Positions 9,602 to 30,125 of a stretch of 37,198 nucleotides of DNA are shown here, in pieces. Source of the DNA: Holosporaceae bacterium (GTDB taxonomy: Bacteria > Pseudomonadota > Alphaproteobacteria > UBA3830); contig JAIROP010000021.1 in NCBI GenBank assembly GCA_031257475.1, forward strand, positions 1 to 37,198. The letters run 5' to 3'. The translations under genes and the position numbers were made by a program. Under the pieces are notes generated by a model. That model saw only the letters and a program-made list of their open reading frames with translations, ran no database searches and was not told the origin of the DNA. The stretch's first letter is position 1, and the number at the start of each line of letters is the position of its first letter.

Positions 9602-9790
9602 CGGAAAGTTCATCATATCAATTTTTCTGTGAAATACAATCTCCGTATTTTCTGCGTTTCTGGCGTTACCTATGGCTTTTTCCCAAAATTGCCACGAAAA
9701 ATCCGTCTGTTTTATGCTGAAATGGAGTTAATTTTAGATAATTCCCCGGTGAATTGCCTATTCTTTTTTTGCACAAATTCCCGATGATTA

Positions 9791-9953
9791 TTGGACTTCT
9801 TTCAAAACTGTCATAAAGCATTCTCCCGGTTGCATATTGCGGCGGTGAGATTAAATAACCGTGTTCGTTTATTAGACCTCTTTCGAAACTCGTCATTATA
9901 TTTCCTGGTTGTATATTGCAGAGATCAAATTGAAACGTAATCCAAATCGTTTT
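9791..9953 (+). repeat. Two tandem degenerate ~81-bp repeats resembling IS/MITE ends
   Basis: Copy 1 starts at 9791 and copy 2 at 9872, both in the same orientation. Both begin TTrGACyTCTTTCrAAACT and later share CCyGGTTGyATATTGC, so the units align over about 80 bases. The first 20 bases are close to the terminal inverted repeat of the small element at 35879-36020 (GACTTCTTTCGAAACCGTC). They therefore look like ends of related transposable elements left in a gene-free region. Confidence 0.6.
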
Positions 9954-10444
9954 CGACGGTTTCTGTACCTGTCGGAGATTATTTTAAATCTTTTACGGTT
10001 CTGGAGCCGAGTCGGGATGGGCAACCTTCCTGGCTTAGGTAACGGTAGAATTTTAGGCATTATTGCTGACCTTTGAAAGGATTTTACTGGAAATACAAAG
10101 CAGCAAAGCTAGGCGCCGAGCGGTTGGAGGTGGCTGCAAGGGGATTTTATTCGACGCGAAGCTTAAACTTTGGAGAAAATCATACGGGATTATCCGGAAA
10201 AACCAGAATGGGTTCAAAAGGCAGCCACAATGTTAAGAAAATTAGGCTAGGTAAAATTCAAGGCACAGCTGTTTTGTCGCCAGAGGTGGAGGGGCAAGAC
10301 AAAACTAAAAAAATTGTTGACGTTTTATGTATGTTCCGTTATGTAGTAATGAGATAGTGTTGCTATGTGGCACAGTGTGGATCTGTCTGCATAGTGCTAT
10401 CGTGGGTTGGTGTTTGTGTGGAGAGTAGTTATGGAAAAGTAGTC
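9954..10444 (+). other. Gene-poor stretch with decayed coding-like fragments
   Basis: No convincing gene is seen. A 94-codon frame starting with TTG at 10073 is lysine- and arginine-rich and has no clear ribosome binding site. Overlapping it in another frame, a short stretch ending near 10250 (IIRDYPEKPEWVQKAATMLRKLG, then stop) has protein-like composition but is cut off upstream by a stop. Together they look like remnants of a decayed gene rather than a functional one. I could not name the family. 9602-9790 likewise shows nothing beyond AT-rich sequence. Confidence 0.35.
10317..10345 (+). promoter_or_regulatory. Possible sigma-70-type promoter for the hybrid kinase gene
   Basis: TTGACG at 10317-10322 is followed after 17 bases by TATGTA at 10340-10345, about 100 bases before the likely start codon of the kinase gene. 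The -35 is good and the -10 is weak. Confidence 0.3.
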
Positions 10445-13165
10445 ATGCCAAAAGAAAATTTGATGGATAGTAGTTCCGGTGAGATTCAGTCCATTATAGC
10501 ACAGATTCGCAATTTTTCTCCGGAAAAACCGATCAGGAATGCTGTGATCTATTTCTGGGAAAGCCATACTGATAAAAATAATGATCCAAGGAAAATTTAT
10601 GCAACGATAGATCTAATCTATAGAGAATTTGATCTATCTGCATGTGAAAAGTATGAAGTAAGAACTGGCTATCTGAGTCGGTATAATTTTCTATCAAAGC
10701 CCATAGATGAATCTTCTCAAAAGGAAAAAGAAGAGGCTATTATTAAAGGGAAACAACAACAAAATGAGTGGATCGACAGGTGTAAACCAGAACTTCCAGG
10801 ATTTAAAATAAAAGATTGGCGGGAGTGTATTTTTAAGGATGAAAACCCGTTTCTTGAGGGATGTGTGGAACTTGTGCGAGAAAAGATTAAAGATAATGGT
10901 GAATTTGAAAACGCTGTCGCGAGTAGCGTTAATGATTTCGCACAGAAATATGGTACCAATGTCTCCAATGGTCAAAGGTACATTATTGAAGAAGTATCGT
11001 GGATGCTGACATTGCCGCTACTACATTCAGACCGGCCAATATATTTAGTACATGTTGATGCGGCAAATGAAGCAGTTGATGCTATGTTTCATCATTTCCC
11101 AAATCTTAAAAAAGCGGTGAGATGGCTATCTCCAAGATTCAATACGGTTGTTTTCAAAAATGTTTATGACTTTCTTCTAGATTACAGGAATGGTAAACAT
11201 ACGGGGTACTCGTATGCAATAGAAAATAGCGCTGCCACAAAAGACTTGAAAAGAGAGGCAGTACAAGAAGAAACAAAAACAAGCAGAAATCCTTTGCTAA
11301 GTGTGTTTGAATATACAAATGCAGAGAGGAATTTATTGCGCTCAATCATAGGGAAACTTCCTGGTCATGTATATTGGACAAACGAAGAGAATGTGTATTT
11401 AGGATGTAATGATGGCCAGGCACAGTTATTAAAGTTGAAATCTCGTGAAGAAATTATAGGAAAAACAAATTATGATTTCCATTCAAAGGAGGAAGCAGAA
11501 AAAATAAATCAAATTAATAAAGAAGTTATGAAAAGTGGTATATCCTACGAAGGAGATGAATCTTCCTCAACAGAGTCTGGTGGATGCAGGAGCTATGTGT
11601 CTAATAAAAGGCCACTTTATGACCCGTTTGGCAAGATTATTGGTTTACTGGGGGTGTCGATTGATATAACCGATCGCAAGCGTGCGGAAGAGTTGGAAAC
11701 CCAAAATAAGGTTCAGAGGAAAATTAACAGACTAGCAGAGCAGGTGTTTCATGATATTCAGACGCCATTGCAGACTTTGAGCATGATTTTAGAGGTTAAT
11801 AAGAACCTCCCTGAAAAGGCGCAGGCAGCTTTCCAAGATTCAGTAAATAACATCAAGAAGATCTTGCAGGTGTTTCTGGAGTATTCCACCGGAAAGGACG
11901 TTTCTGTGGATTTTCGGCCAATTCTAGTTTCAAAAATTTTGGCGGATATTCTCGACCAGAAAGAGATTCAATACAAAGATAGAAGGGTGAAGTTTCAGTA
12001 TTTATTTGATCCGTCTGCACGATTCTCATTTATTTATGGAAGGGATGTTAATTTTGAGCGTATGATAAGCAATATAATAAACAATTCAGTGGAAGCTTGT
12101 GAAACAAAAGATGGGATTATAAAACTTGTTCTCTCTGCCGATGATGACAGCGTAAAAATTACCATCCAAGATAATGGGAAAGGCATGCCCTCGGAAATTG
12201 TGGAAAAGTTAATGAAAAATGAGTCTGTTTCCAGCACCAAAGAATGTGGATACGGAATTGGGATGCCGCAAATTCAAGATACGTTACAAGAACTTAATGG
12301 AACGCAAGTTATTGAGTCTACGCAAAATGTTGGAACGAAGATCATGCTCACAATTCCAAGATATGAGAAGTTATGGTGGGAGACAGAGAAGATTGACATT
12401 CGCAGAGGTCAGATTGTGGTCATTGTAGATGATGATGTTGGGATACATGGGAAGTGGAAGGAGAGGTTGGGAAAATATACTCCTGGTATCTCTTTGAAAT
12501 TCTTTAGAGAAGGTCAGGCAGCGGTAGATTTTATAAATACTTGTGGGAGAAGAGAGGACGTTTTCCTGTTATCGGACTATGAACTAAGAAACCAGCCACT
12601 GAATGGTTTGGATGTTATACAAAAGAGCGGTATAGGGAGGCATCAATCTATTCTGGTCAGTGAGCATTACGGTAGCAAAGGAATAGAGAAAAAAAGCAGA
12701 GGAGTTTGGGCTGCGGGGGGGGTGTTGCCCAAGGAATTCATTAATGATGTTCGCATTGTTTTTGAAGGAATGAAAGTCGGTAATTTATCATTTGAAAAGG
12801 TCGATGTGATTATGTTGGACGATGAGAAGTTTTTTGTGAACTTACTCAGTGATGTTTTGAGATCCAGTGGCCTTGTGGTTGACATCTATTACGATCCTCG
12901 GACCTTAAAGGAGAATTTGTCCAAGTACAGCTGTGAAACTAGAATAATTATAGATAATTGGTTTGATGGAAAAGAGGACGGAGATGTCTTGGCTAACCTG
13001 CTGTCCGAGAAAGGCTTTAAAAATCTATGTGTGCTCACAGGACTTGTTCTGGATAGTATGTGTTTGAAATATCCCGATGGAACGAAATTCATATCCAAAG
13101 GCAGCGATAATTGTGAGGCTCAGATCTTAGACTGGTGTAAAAGGAGATGCAGGGTGATTTCCTAG
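10445..13165 (+). CDS. Hybrid histidine kinase with an N-terminal cyclodipeptide-synthase-like domain
   Basis: This protein has about 906 residues from ATG 10445; a GTG at 10367 would add 26 unlikely residues. Residues 30-230 resemble tRNA-dependent cyclodipeptide synthases. The stretch around Ser40 (nucleophile position) is followed by a KIYATIDLIYREF helix, TGYLSRYNFL and QNEWIDRC, then GEFENAV and RYIIEEVSWM (Tyr179, Glu183) and IYLVHVD (Val202-His203 where AlbC has Tyr-His). A PAS domain follows (298-412, ending IDITDRKRAEE), then an H-box with His436 (FHDIQTPLQTL) and an ATPase domain (NIINNSVEA, DNGKGMP, GYGIGM). Two receiver domains end the protein (DDD 662-664 with Asp711 and Lys763; DD 792-793 with Asp837 and Lys885). 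No membrane helix is seen, so it is cytoplasmic. The last codons and stop derive from an inserted IS end. The CDPS call rests on pattern recall, not a profile search. Confidence 0.8.
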   Translation: MPKENLMDSSSGEIQSIIAQIRNFSPEKPIRNAVIYFWESHTDKNNDPRKIYATIDLIYREFDLSACEKYEVRTGYLSRYNFLSKPIDESSQKEKEEAIIKGKQQQNEWIDRCKPELPGFKIKDWRECIFKDENPFLEGCVELVREKIKDNGEFENAVASSVNDFAQKYGTNVSNGQRYIIEEVSWMLTLPLLHSDRPIYLVHVDAANEAVDAMFHHFPNLKKAVRWLSPRFNTVVFKNVYDFLLDYRNGKHTGYSYAIENSAATKDLKREAVQEETKTSRNPLLSVFEYTNAERNLLRSIIGKLPGHVYWTNEENVYLGCNDGQAQLLKLKSREEIIGKTNYDFHSKEEAEKINQINKEVMKSGISYEGDESSSTESGGCRSYVSNKRPLYDPFGKIIGLLGVSIDITDRKRAEELETQNKVQRKINRLAEQVFHDIQTPLQTLSMILEVNKNLPEKAQAAFQDSVNNIKKILQVFLEYSTGKDVSVDFRPILVSKILADILDQKEIQYKDRRVKFQYLFDPSARFSFIYGRDVNFERMISNIINNSVEACETKDGIIKLVLSADDDSVKITIQDNGKGMPSEIVEKLMKNESVSSTKECGYGIGMPQIQDTLQELNGTQVIESTQNVGTKIMLTIPRYEKLWWETEKIDIRRGQIVVIVDDDVGIHGKWKERLGKYTPGISLKFFREGQAAVDFINTCGRREDVFLLSDYELRNQPLNGLDVIQKSGIGRHQSILVSEHYGSKGIEKKSRGVWAAGGVLPKEFINDVRIVFEGMKVGNLSFEKVDVIMLDDEKFFVNLLSDVLRSSGLVVDIYYDPRTLKENLSKYSCETRIIIDNWFDGKEDGDVLANLLSEKGFKNLCVLTGLVLDSMCLKYPDGTKFISKGSDNCEAQILDWCKRRCRVIS

Positions 13166-23186: not shown

Positions 23187-25672
23187 TTGAGACCGTTGCC
23201 CCCTAGAACCTCTTTTACTTTGCCTGCGAGTTCCTTCAAATTAAATGGTTTTGGAAGGAAATGGACATCATATTCATCGTTGTTCAGCGAATCCTGGAGA
23301 CTCTCTTCCGTGTACCCGGATATAAAAATAACTTTCATTTTCGGGTTGTACTCTTTGATGTGTTTCATTAGCGTTGGGCCGTCCATCCGGGGCATGACCA
23401 CATCCGTTATTATTAAATCTATGCCTTTTCCCCCCTTACTGATAAATTCGAGAGCTGCCTCTCCATTGGATGAGTCGATCACGGTGTATCCCTTATCCCG
23501 AAGGGCTCTGGCGCTGAACATTCGCACGGCGTCTTCGTCCTCCACCAGCAAAATTGTACCCATTCCTGTCAGATCAAGGACTCGATTATCAACAGCTTTA
23601 ACCTCCTGGGCTGCCTGTTCTTCTTCGGAAACTTCTGGAAAGTACAGGCAAAATTTCGTTCCACAGCCTATTCCACTTTCCACGGAAATGAACCCTCCTG
23701 TTTGATTAACAATTCCATAAACCGTGGACAATCCAAGACCAGTTCCATGTCCCTTTTCCTTGGAAGAAAAGAAGGGATCGAATATCCTATTCAAGTTTTG
23801 CTCCTCTATGCCACATCCGGTATCAATTACCTCTATCAATACGTAATTACCGGGAGGCATGGTCTCTCCACGCAAAAATTTTGGTTCACTGGATGAATAG
23901 GAGGAGGTTTGAATGGTTAAAACGCCGCCGTCAGGCATTGCATCCCGAGCATTAACCGAGAGATTTATGATAACCTGTTCAAACTGAATTTGATCCACTT
24001 TTATAAGACGAACATCTCGTCCATGAACCACCTTCAGATCGATCTTGGCCCCAAGCAGCCGTTTCAGGAGCGCCGTTAGTTCACTTATCATATCATTGAT
24101 GCGCAACAGCTGTGGTTCCAGTTTTTGTTGTCTGGAGAAAGCCAACAGCTGCCTTACCAGATTCGCAGCTCTGTTGGCATTTTGCTTTATCTGTATAATA
24201 TCGTTGAAAGATTGATCTGATGGAAGAAACTTTTCCAGCAGCAAATCGCAGTAGCCGATCATTGCCGTAAGCAGATTGTTAAAATCGTGCGCGATGCCTC
24301 CGGCCAATTGTCCTACAGCCTGCATTTTTTGCGACTGCACAAATTGGTATTGAAGTTTTTTCCTTTCGGTTATATCTATGAAGTAAATTATCAAACTATC
24401 AGTCTCGCTGGCGCGTCTGGCTGCATCGACTTTTGTTACATATAGCATGACAGTCATCTTTTCCTGGGCTGTAAACCGAATTTCAAATGGCGTAATGTGA
24501 CCATGCACCGTATCCAACAACTGATATAATTTCTCTCTCACATTTTCTCGATCATCCTCATGTATGTAATCCAAAAAAGAAGTATTTGTTTTATCATTTT
24601 CCGCTAAACTAGCGATATTTTGAAATGTGTGATTATATGCACGGATTATTTCCGCGCCATCGGTTATCACTATGCCCACCGGAGCATCTTCAAAAATATG
24701 CTCGAAGTATTGCTTTGTCTTATTTAGAACCTGGATTATATCGCTGTCATGCATAGTATCCCTGGTGGCCATGTAGATTCTGTTGCCATCCCTATTTATG
24801 AAAATATGGCGCACAATAACTTCACAGTATTTTTCATCTGATTTTAGAGTAATTTTGGCAGGTAAAGATCCCGTAAGTTTCCCACTGTTGGATGGTAGAT
24901 CTTCACTTTTCTCTCTTATTATGTATCTGAAGAAAATATTATTTAGAACTTCATCGACCTTCTTGCCCAACCAATTGGCGAAAGTTAGATTGCAAAATAT
25001 TATTTCATGTTCATCATTAATACAAAAGTATCCCACAGTGGAACTATTGATTATTTCCAACAAAAAACGACTATTAGTCTCCAGAGATTCGATTTTTATT
25101 GCGGATGGTGTAAGGTCAATGATGGTCCAGCCGCTGTACTCCGGATGACCGGAAATTGGAGAAACAGCTATGCGCCAAATGGCAGGATTATCAGCATTTA
25201 ACTTCATTGGAATGTCTATATGAGATTGCTTCGCATTCTCTGCAGCCACCTGAAGGTTGTGGATCGCAGCAACTACCTTGGGATGTTTTCCAAAACAAAA
25301 TATGAAATCTCCAATGGTTCTTATTTTTAGCCCTGGAAATAAATTTTGGGCAGTTCTATTTATAAAAATACATTTCCCATTCTTCGCAAAGACAAAAAAT
25401 GCAAACATGGAGGCATCAAATCCACTGGTAACCACACTCTTCTGGTAACTAATTAAATTATTGTGCCCTTGTATTTTTTTTATTTCACGAAAAAATGAGA
25501 AACAGATGCAGCCGGTAACAAAAACAGCTAGCACAGAACAGTAATTTCCCTCAGATACTCCGGCAACTGCGGCCACTAGAGCGAAAAACAAAAAAGTGCA
25601 CATCAGCATAACATGCTTTAGAGGCATTCGTCTTTTCAGTAGGAAATTTTCTAGATCAACGAAAAAGTCCAT
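23183..25672 (-). CDS. cckA: CckA-type hybrid sensor histidine kinase
   Basis: This 829-residue protein has two N-terminal membrane helices (about 20-38 and 45-62), then three PAS-like segments (about 80-190, 200-300, 320-436, the last ending IIYFIDITERKKLQ). The dimerisation/phosphotransfer helix has His462 in LAGGIAHDFNNLLTAMIGY, the CckA hallmark. The ATPase domain has NLSVNARDAMP, DTGCGI and GTGLGLSTVYGIV. The C-terminal receiver has Asp757 in IITDVVMPRMDGP and Lys808 in LPKPFN. CckA feeds phosphate through ChpT to CtrA in the alphaproteobacterial cell-cycle relay; neither partner is in the window. It heads a co-directional run with lnt, rplU and rpmA. All phospho-acceptors are intact, unlike the kinase at 28839. 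Confidence 0.94.
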   Translation of the reverse strand: MDFFVDLENFLLKRRMPLKHVMLMCTFLFFALVAAVAGVSEGNYCSVLAVFVTGCICFSFFREIKKIQGHNNLISYQKSVVTSGFDASMFAFFVFAKNGKCIFINRTAQNLFPGLKIRTIGDFIFCFGKHPKVVAAIHNLQVAAENAKQSHIDIPMKLNADNPAIWRIAVSPISGHPEYSGWTIIDLTPSAIKIESLETNSRFLLEIINSSTVGYFCINDEHEIIFCNLTFANWLGKKVDEVLNNIFFRYIIREKSEDLPSNSGKLTGSLPAKITLKSDEKYCEVIVRHIFINRDGNRIYMATRDTMHDSDIIQVLNKTKQYFEHIFEDAPVGIVITDGAEIIRAYNHTFQNIASLAENDKTNTSFLDYIHEDDRENVREKLYQLLDTVHGHITPFEIRFTAQEKMTVMLYVTKVDAARRASETDSLIIYFIDITERKKLQYQFVQSQKMQAVGQLAGGIAHDFNNLLTAMIGYCDLLLEKFLPSDQSFNDIIQIKQNANRAANLVRQLLAFSRQQKLEPQLLRINDMISELTALLKRLLGAKIDLKVVHGRDVRLIKVDQIQFEQVIINLSVNARDAMPDGGVLTIQTSSYSSSEPKFLRGETMPPGNYVLIEVIDTGCGIEEQNLNRIFDPFFSSKEKGHGTGLGLSTVYGIVNQTGGFISVESGIGCGTKFCLYFPEVSEEEQAAQEVKAVDNRVLDLTGMGTILLVEDEDAVRMFSARALRDKGYTVIDSSNGEAALEFISKGGKGIDLIITDVVMPRMDGPTLMKHIKEYNPKMKVIFISGYTEESLQDSLNNDEYDVHFLPKPFNLKELAGKVKEVLGGNGLK

Positions 25673-25681
25673 TTTTCCTTC

Positions 25682-25708
25682 GCTCCGCGGGAATATACTC
25701 CTTTAGCA
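25682..25708 (+). repeat. Partial dispersed repeat copy (CCGCGGGAATATACTCC)
   Basis: CTCCGCGGGAATATACTCCT is a shortened, diverged match to the GCCGCGGGGAATATATCCCC family at 13273, 18904 and 36783. It lies between the transglycosylase gene and cckA. Confidence 0.4.
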
Positions 25709-28759: not shown

Positions 28760-28838
28760 TGCTGCATATTATGTAGATTTTTAACAAAAAAATGTTAATA
28801 GCGTGTAAAAAACGAAAATTTAAAATATTTTTAACTTT

Positions 28839-30125
28839 ATGTGGATAGAATTCTTTCAACGTCTACAAGACTTAGAAATGGAAGATTTTAACAGTGTAAA
28901 TTTTACCCAAAAATCCGCTAAAATTTTGGTTGTAGACGATCAAGAAAATGCGAGAGCTCTTCTGAAGCGCAGGCTATCCACATATGGTTATGAGATACTA
29001 GCAGCAGCGAGCAACAAACAGGCTCTCGAAATACTGGCGTCGAGCCTGGTGGACGTCATATTCTTAAACATGTTCATGAATGGAGCCAGCAGCTATGATT
29101 TCCTTGTGGAGCTAAAGGGAAATAGTCTATACCGTTCTATTCCTATCATCATGATCTCCAGCGATAGCGATGTTGACCTGGTGGTTAAATGCATAGAAGC
29201 GGGGGCAGAAGATTATTTGGTGAAACCATTAAATCAAACCCTTCTGCGGGCGCGTCTCTCAAATTGCATTGCCCAGAAAGAAGCCCATGATAAGGAAATT
29301 GCCTATCTGGCCAAAATTGAACGGGGAGAAAAACAAATAGTGGCCCAGGAAAAGATGGCTTCCCTGGGCGCTCTGGTTAGTTCGATTTCCCAGGAACTCA
29401 AAAACCCGCTGAATTTTATTATTAATTTTGCATCTGTTAGCGCAGAAATTTGTGAAGAACTTGTGGAAAAAATCGAACAGAATAAAGACTCGCTACCGAC
29501 GGATATTTTCACACTACTGTCGAACAATTTCGGCAAATTTAAATCAAATGTTGTAAAAATCTCCGAATATGGACAAAACGCAGACAAAATTATCCGGTTC
29601 ATGCTAGATCAATCCAAGACTTCCGGCGGAAAAAAACACCCAGCCAGCATAAACAAGACCATTTCACAGACCATAACCATGCTGTTTTCATCCTACAAGA
29701 ACAACGGAATCACAAATCTACCCAAAATCGACTCTCAATTTGATGATTCCATACCACACATCTCCATATCTATACAATCTTTTAGCAAGGCCATTTACAA
29801 TATACTAGATAACGCCATATACTCCGTTATCAATAAATTCCAGAATGTTTCGGAGGCAAAGATCCTCATAAGAACAGAGAATCTGTTATCCAGCATAAAA
29901 ATTCTCATCTATGATAATGGTAATGGGATAGCGGATGGTATCCTGGATAGGATCTTTATACCATTCTTTACGACAAAACCAGAGGGCACGGGACCAGGCC
30001 TTGGACTATCCACTGCCAGAGAGGTTATAGAGGATCATTCTGGAAACATTTCAGTCAATTCCAGAGAAAATGAATTTGCCGAATTCACGATAGTTATACC
30101 GTCTGGCATCGCCCTATCGTCATAG
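28839..30125 (+). CDS. Receiver-histidine kinase protein lacking both phospho-acceptors
   Basis: This protein is about 428 residues long. The N-terminal receiver domain keeps the acidic pair Asp33-Asp34 ([10 protein letters not shown]), the Ser in IIMISSDSD and Lys129 (YLVKPLN), but the phospho-acceptor position is Asn77 ([11 protein letters not shown]). A coiled linker (145-175) leads to an H-box where the expected histidine is Gln185 ([21 protein letters not shown]; most relatives read AHEL.NPLNF). The ATPase domain looks intact: [40 protein letters not shown]. It therefore cannot autophosphorylate in the usual way and may act as a nucleotide-binding scaffold or regulator. The bases (AAC 29067-29069, CAG 29391-29393) are unambiguous. 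No membrane helix. The start could also be ATG 28878. Confidence 0.85.

Follow-up and report, generated by a model that had tools for sequence, protein, structure and literature searches.

Cyclodipeptide synthases (CDPSs) are regarded as enzymes of secondary metabolism, and their biological roles are mostly unknown. Autoinducer synthases of the CqsA/LqsA type are encoded together with a dedicated sensor kinase. An analysis of CDPSs published in 2010 contained only standalone forms (PMC2922099). In the fusions surveyed in 2018, the CDPS is joined only to a C-terminal methyltransferase, P450 or ABC transporter, and in the P450 fusion the CDPS at the N-terminus was active when isolated (PMC5816076). 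That PAS domains often occur close to CDPS genes has been noted, together with a guess at quorum sensing (PMC5767969). The open-access literature that we searched on CDPSs in connection with histidine kinases, two-component systems, PAS domains or Legionella does not describe a fusion of CDPS and kinase.

The window (the whole stretch of 37,198 nucleotides of a Holosporaceae genome that was analysed) contains a gene for a cytosolic hybrid histidine kinase whose N-terminal domain has the CDPS fold (Table 1). As in the known CDPS fusions, this domain is the N-terminal part of a larger protein, but the partners in those fusions are tailoring or transport domains and not signalling kinases (PMC5816076). 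The CqsA/LqsA-type system consists of two proteins and uses another enzyme and another ligand chemistry, whereas the window system is cytosolic and fused. With a gene pair on the Legionella lytica plasmid pLlyPCM2298_1 (NZ_CP071528.1, locus L064) the window protein shares the combination of CDPS and PAS_4 hybrid kinase, with 27% identity over the PAS-kinase part. There, however, the two proteins are separate, the CDPS is an ordinary PF16715 member and the kinase (PAS_4-HisKA-HATPase-REC-Hpt), whose gene is overlapped by the CDPS gene by 14 bases, carries an Hpt domain.

Table 1. Features of the CDPS-like kinase gene (window positions; residues counted from the ATG at 10445).
Feature	Position	Strand	Evidence
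Whole gene, CDPS-like / PAS / hybrid histidine kinase	10445..13165	+	ORF reading; homologues with the same architecture
N-terminal CDPS-like domain (residues 1-258; order begins at about residue 11)	10445..11218	+	AF2, Foldseek, hhalign
Ser40, counterpart of CDPS nucleophile Ser37, invariant	10562..10564	+	family alignment, profile alignment
Tyr179-x-x-Glu182-Glu183, counterparts of AlbC Tyr178 and Glu182 (Glu183), invariant	10979..10993	+	alignments
His203, invariant; Tyr202 slot when aligned to XYP CDPSs	11051..11053	+	alignments
PAS_4 domain	11369..11683	+	Pfam PF08448, E 2.8e-11
HisKA-like dimerisation/phosphoacceptor region; H-box VFHDIQTP at about 11744-11767	11729..11872	+	Pfam PF00512, weak, E 0.038; sequence
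HATPase_c kinase domain	12050..12361	+	Pfam PF02518, E 4.5e-15; genome search
First receiver-like domain (VDDD ... SDYEL ... LPKEF)	12413..12766	+	read from sequence
Second receiver-like domain (MLDDE ... IIIDNW ... FISKGS)	12800..13105	+	Pfam PF00072, weak, E 9.6e-4, aa 814-882

The reading frame runs open between 10358 and 13162 and has its stop at 13165; the ATG at 10445 gives 906 residues and an upstream alternative, the GTG at 10367, gives 932. The kinase part has the make-up of a hybrid histidine kinase, namely PAS, H-box, HATPase_c and receivers. PF08448 and PF02518 matched significantly; HisKA and Response_reg matched weakly, yet their motifs are present. The first receiver-like domain of the window protein gave no significant Pfam match, and the homologous region matches Response_reg in two relatives (L111 and L112). 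The window encodes two more two-component proteins, a PAS/HisKA/HATPase/REC hybrid kinase (23189-25699, minus strand) and a protein with the unusual order REC-HisKA-HATPase (28824-30119, plus strand). Upstream of the kinase gene, at 9740-9960, lie degenerate repeated segments (e.g., 'attagacctctttcgaaactcgtcat' and 'attggacttctttcaaaactgtcat') that resemble old insertion-sequence ends and may mark the route by which the gene arrived.

The AlphaFold2 (AF2) model of the N-terminal domain, built from 26 family members, had a pLDDT of 91.0 and a pTM of 0.87. When it was compared to the PDB with Foldseek, the best 37 matches were all CDPS chains, the top one being Fdum-CDPS (5ocd; E 3.7e-9, target TM 0.70). 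Fdum-CDPS, Nbra-CDPS and Rgry-CDPS, all of the XYP subfamily, were followed by NYH enzymes including AlbC (7e-6) and then by class I tyrosyl-tRNA synthetases. This order is expected of a CDPS, since the CDPS fold is derived from that of the class I synthetases. In profile-profile comparison (hhalign), the family matched six XYP-type CDPSs with 94.4% probability (95.8%, E 7e-9, when PDB fragments were added) and the NYH enzymes with 58%. Among 300 column permutations the maximum score was 27.4, as compared to real scores of 57.5 and 37.7. Sequence searches were silent: Pfam had no credible match within residues 1-300 of the window protein, neither the domain nor its family retrieved a CDPS (PF16715 or TIGR04539) from Pfam, NCBIfam or the PDB, and none of 14 family members matched the PF16715 profile. 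Because of the fold result, we read this silence as divergence and not as absence. The same silence might suggest that the domain has no relation to CDPSs and that its motifs resemble theirs by chance; in view of the Foldseek matches, of hhalign with its permutation controls and of the genuine CDPSs that occupy this position on the same kinase in relatives (see below), we consider this extremely improbable. Homology to CDPSs, CDPS fold and kinase fusion, taken together, are in our judgement nearly certain. What has been uncovered is a branch of CDPSs missed by standard profiles. The window domain descends from CDPSs and may function as they do; we do not class it as a proven CDPS.

A preliminary description of this DNA, made from the letters alone, had claimed a CDPS-like domain fused to a hybrid histidine kinase, and AF2/Foldseek, profile-profile comparison and the Pfam kinase domains bear this out. 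The PF16715 search that it proposed as a check was negative. The structure prediction gave the anticipated CDPS-type, class I aminoacyl-tRNA-synthetase-like Rossmann fold, so that, with the profile-profile match, the outcome named as refuting (neither profile match nor such a fold) did not occur; the fusion, sought in other genomes, is real and recurs in many of them. The domain had been located correctly at residues 30-230 and extends further, to about residue 250-258 (11218). The comparison with AlbC was right as to CDPS fold and homology, but the nearest subfamily is XYP (Fdum, Nbra, Rgry) and not the AlbC-type NYH.

Ser40, Tyr179, Glu182, Glu183 and His203 are invariant in all 26 family members. 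Since 31 of the 258 positions are invariant among these homologues, the probability for four preset positions is 1.7e-4, and the invariance of all four residues named beforehand (Ser40, Tyr179, Glu183 and His203) therefore goes beyond chance. These residues were found at the places given, with Val at 202, and so were all the quoted motifs, in order. In the sequence-based alignment to XYP enzymes, Ser40, Tyr179 and Glu183 fall on the catalytic Ser37, Tyr178 and Glu182. This alignment puts His203-Val204 on Tyr202-Pro203, so His203 most likely sits in the slot of CDPS Tyr202, as far as can be judged from sequence; the mapping of Val202-His203 on Tyr202-His203 proposed earlier agrees with the weaker NYH alignment only. 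Under either alignment Tyr202 is replaced, by His203 or Val202. In AlbC, Tyr202 relays a proton for cyclisation and its change to Phe traps the dipeptidyl-enzyme (PMC7731078), a role disputed by a model in a 2026 review (PMC12945691). The Asp said to replace Asn40 of AlbC does stand three residues after the Ser, as Asp43, and position 43 is variable in the family. Thus, of the XYP signature X40-Y202-P203, the X is satisfied and the other two positions are His203-Val204.

With the XYP enzymes of known structure (5ocd, 5mlq/9i5m for Nbra-CDPS and 5mlp for Rgry-CDPS) the window domain shares the fold, the Ser nucleophile, the Tyr178/Glu182 counterparts and the collinear motifs RhN, RWddW..HP and YLLEE. 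It differs from them in lacking Tyr202-Pro203 and a PF16715 match, in having Trp at the position of Gly35, in being fused to a kinase and in having an activity that is only predicted. With AlbC and the NYH subfamily it shares the overall fold and the catalytic Ser, Tyr and Glu, but it lacks Asn40, Tyr202 and the basic helix alpha4, and its His203 matches in the weaker alignment only. In AlbC-type enzymes, helix alpha4 is a basic patch that binds tRNA (PMC4159871). Its mean charge is -2.8 in the CDPS-like family, as compared to +5.4 in the NYH set and 0.0 in the XYP set. The Gly35 of CDPSs is Trp38 throughout the family, and together with His41, Glu68, Glu71, Trp109 and Trp125, also invariant, it suggests a new pocket.

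The 0.92-Mb genome of the window's organism contains four copies of the domain (contigs 14, 5, 17 and 21), three of which are paralogues 44-59% identical to the window copy. The paralogue on contig 5 (G000:C5:39839-40646; L017:9777-10646) ends 20 residues past the CDPS-like domain, near the contig end, and contig C39 (L079) carries a kinase half that matches it; either the assembly is broken here or the gene is split. Of 50 genomes of the order, 10 have the domain. When 84,980 species genomes were scanned with an alignment (a single-sequence scan of genome contigs returned nothing), it turned up only in metagenome-assembled genomes of Holosporales/Alphaproteobacteria and in Endomicrobium/Endomicrobiellum (Elusimicrobiota). 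It occurs in 16 of 96 Endomicrobia-class genomes, where many copies have decayed. Wherever frame and contig permit reading, it is joined to the same PAS-kinase, and no standalone form was found in the plasmids or phages searched.

In the domain tree, rows of Holosporales and Endomicrobia interleave with at least 5 changes and a single Endomicrobia clade is rejected (AU p 5e-53); therefore, the gene crosses phyla, and a gene family repeatedly exchanged between unrelated symbionts is revealed. Misbinning is an unlikely origin of the Endomicrobium copies, whose loci lie on AT-rich contigs of up to 300 kb; for isolated short contigs, for example L032 (7.3 kb), the origin is uncertain. The Endomicrobium loci have a GC content of 0.29-0.36; that of most Holosporales loci is 0.35-0.45, and an alphaproteobacterial locus from the rumen has 0.32. 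Pseudogenes of both the CDPS-like domain and genuine CDPSs are abundant in Endomicrobia (many in G700, G703, G704, G706, G708, G736, G752 and G754), which suggests frequent gain and loss. Endomicrobia are symbionts of termite-gut flagellates. Obligate symbiosis, mostly with protists, is the way of life of Holosporales (PMC11909080). Because of these habits, the window's organism probably lives inside protists as well.

Genuine CDPSs, defined by a PF16715 match, were searched for in relatives of the window's organism. None was found in 299 genomes of the phylum; sampling of the class and the order did find them. In the same bacterial family, genuine CDPSs with 150-199 Pfam bits precede the PAS_4 kinase or are fused to it. 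One genome (G016) has a CDPS of 196 bits fused to a PAS_4-kinase (L100:6652-8877). Another (G039) has a fused CDPS-kinase (L113:2709-4841; CDPS 152 bits), a two-gene copy with the CDPS directly upstream of the kinase (L112) and one CDPS-like fusion. In a member of the window's genus (G001, L111), PQ-loop gene, CDPS and kinase are consecutive, with the CDPS directly upstream of the kinase, as it also is in another alphaproteobacterial family (G069, L101). Each of six Endomicrobia CDPSs (L120-L125) is directly followed by a kinase gene with at least two PAS_4-type domains, as read by Pfam in five cases and by eye in the partial stretch L124; in those five (L120, L121, L122, L123 and L125), two or three very similar PAS_4 domains stand in tandem. 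Overall, 12 of 12 genuine NYH-type CDPSs with a readable neighbour in these bacteria adjoin or are fused to a PAS_4 kinase, a count that leaves out L126, cut by its contig end. Among the 96 Endomicrobia-class genomes, the CDPS-like domain is found in 16, PF16715 in 12 and both in 10 (hypergeometric P 4e-8, uncorrected for relatedness).

The kinase itself is the same. The G016 kinase matched the CDPS-like kinase family over its full length with E values up to 4e-90 (2e-59 for the window protein), as compared to 1e-9 or weaker for the other kinases of that genome. NYH-type genuine members, with Lys at 203, hold in relatives the slot that the CDPS-like domain holds in the window. In a kinase tree without long branches, the genuine-CDPS kinases occupy two positions amid the CDPS-like ones and a single clade is rejected (AU p 0.019); with very distant rows included, a single CDPS-like clade is not rejected (AU p 0.25). 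The two places in the tree imply that the N-terminal types were exchanged on one kinase chassis, a conclusion that these comparisons support well and do not prove. A gene for a PQ-loop protein of about 90 residues (SemiSWEET-like, PF04193) adjoins both types, in Holosporales and Endomicrobia, at eight loci: the genuine CDPSs of L111, L113, L120, L122 and L123 (after the kinase in L120, L122 and L123, all Endomicrobia) and the CDPS-like fusions of L038, L046 and L048. Next to the window copy there is neither a tailoring enzyme nor a PQ-loop gene. The best explanation of these gene orders is that the window gene represents the fused form of a CDPS and PAS-kinase (and PQ-loop) operon of related symbionts.

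As each of the two N-terminal domains has taken the other's place on a single kinase and in a single operon, both are expected to provide input of one kind. Fusion, operon and domain exchange on one chassis show, at the level of gene comparison, that CDPS chemistry would be what feeds this kinase; spread over two symbiont phyla and Legionella, they link that chemistry directly to phosphorelay. As related symbionts encode the genuine enzyme next to this kinase or in one chain with it, they point to a device that both makes and senses a signal. The question of the cyclodipeptide as a bacterial signal can now be tested with one protein. Our main reading, with a probability of about 0.5, is that the N-terminal domain is a diverged CDPS, with predicted catalysis, that serves as the kinase input by making a small aminoacyl-derived product, which the PAS domain would read. 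We infer catalysis, this product, PAS as its receptor and the PQ-loop protein as its carrier: the domain would load the aminoacyl group of a charged tRNA onto Ser40 and, with His203 replacing Tyr202, complete a cyclic or linear dipeptide; the adjoining PAS_4 domain would bind it and govern autophosphorylation at the H-box and phosphorelay via the receiver domains; where present, the PQ-loop protein would transport the product or a related solute. Product sensing is favoured on two grounds: in most relatives the CDPS is a separate protein, so that only a product or physical contact would let it act on the kinase, and the kinases beside genuine CDPSs have multiplied PAS copies; the two or three PAS_4 domains of the Endomicrobial kinases point to PAS as the reader. 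The loss of Tyr202, the acidic helix alpha4 and the solitary position of the window copy, with no tailoring or PQ-loop neighbour, speak against this reading.

Two other readings bear on the same residues. The domain might only form the aminoacyl- or dipeptidyl-Ser40 intermediate, with no cyclisation, so that its acylation state, and thereby the supply of charged tRNA, sets the kinase directly. The invariance of Ser40, Tyr179 and Glu183 beside a replaced Tyr202 would fit such a sensor, as would the trapped intermediate of AlbC Tyr202Phe (PMC7731078) and the Cys at the Tyr202 position of the fused genuine CDPS in G039 (L113), Tyr202 being kept in the unfused CDPSs that can be read to the C-terminus. 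The fused CDPS of G016, however, retains Tyr202, fused lineages number only three, helix alpha4 is acidic, and in the operon forms the acylation state of a separate CDPS would have to be passed on by contact; we hold this reading to be rather unlikely. Equally doubtful is a catalytically dead domain in which the CDPS pocket is reused to bind an amino acid, a dipeptide or a nucleotide. The lost Tyr202, the Trp38, the acidic helix, the putative new pocket and the 0 of 14 matches to PF16715 are what such a domain would display, but the catalytic Ser-Tyr-Glu set, unneeded for mere binding, is invariant over two phyla and four divergent paralogues, and swaps with genuine CDPSs have occurred on one kinase. 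Within the main reading, production of a product read by the PAS domain, we tentatively consider, as a rather unlikely prospect, a one-polypeptide device in which a dipeptide autoinducer synthase is covalently linked to its own receptor kinase, with the PQ-loop transporter in the operon; bacteria within one protist cell, Alphaproteobacteria and Endomicrobia that exchange the gene, might then make and read a common aminoacyl-tRNA-derived signal.

Four XYP-type CDPS genes (L102, L103, L104 and L106, in G081, G184, G167 and G068, respectively) lie directly downstream of a gene for an XRE-type helix-turn-helix regulator. These regulators share a conserved C-terminal domain, and the arrangement is a possible second CDPS-regulator pairing, undescribed in the literature examined.
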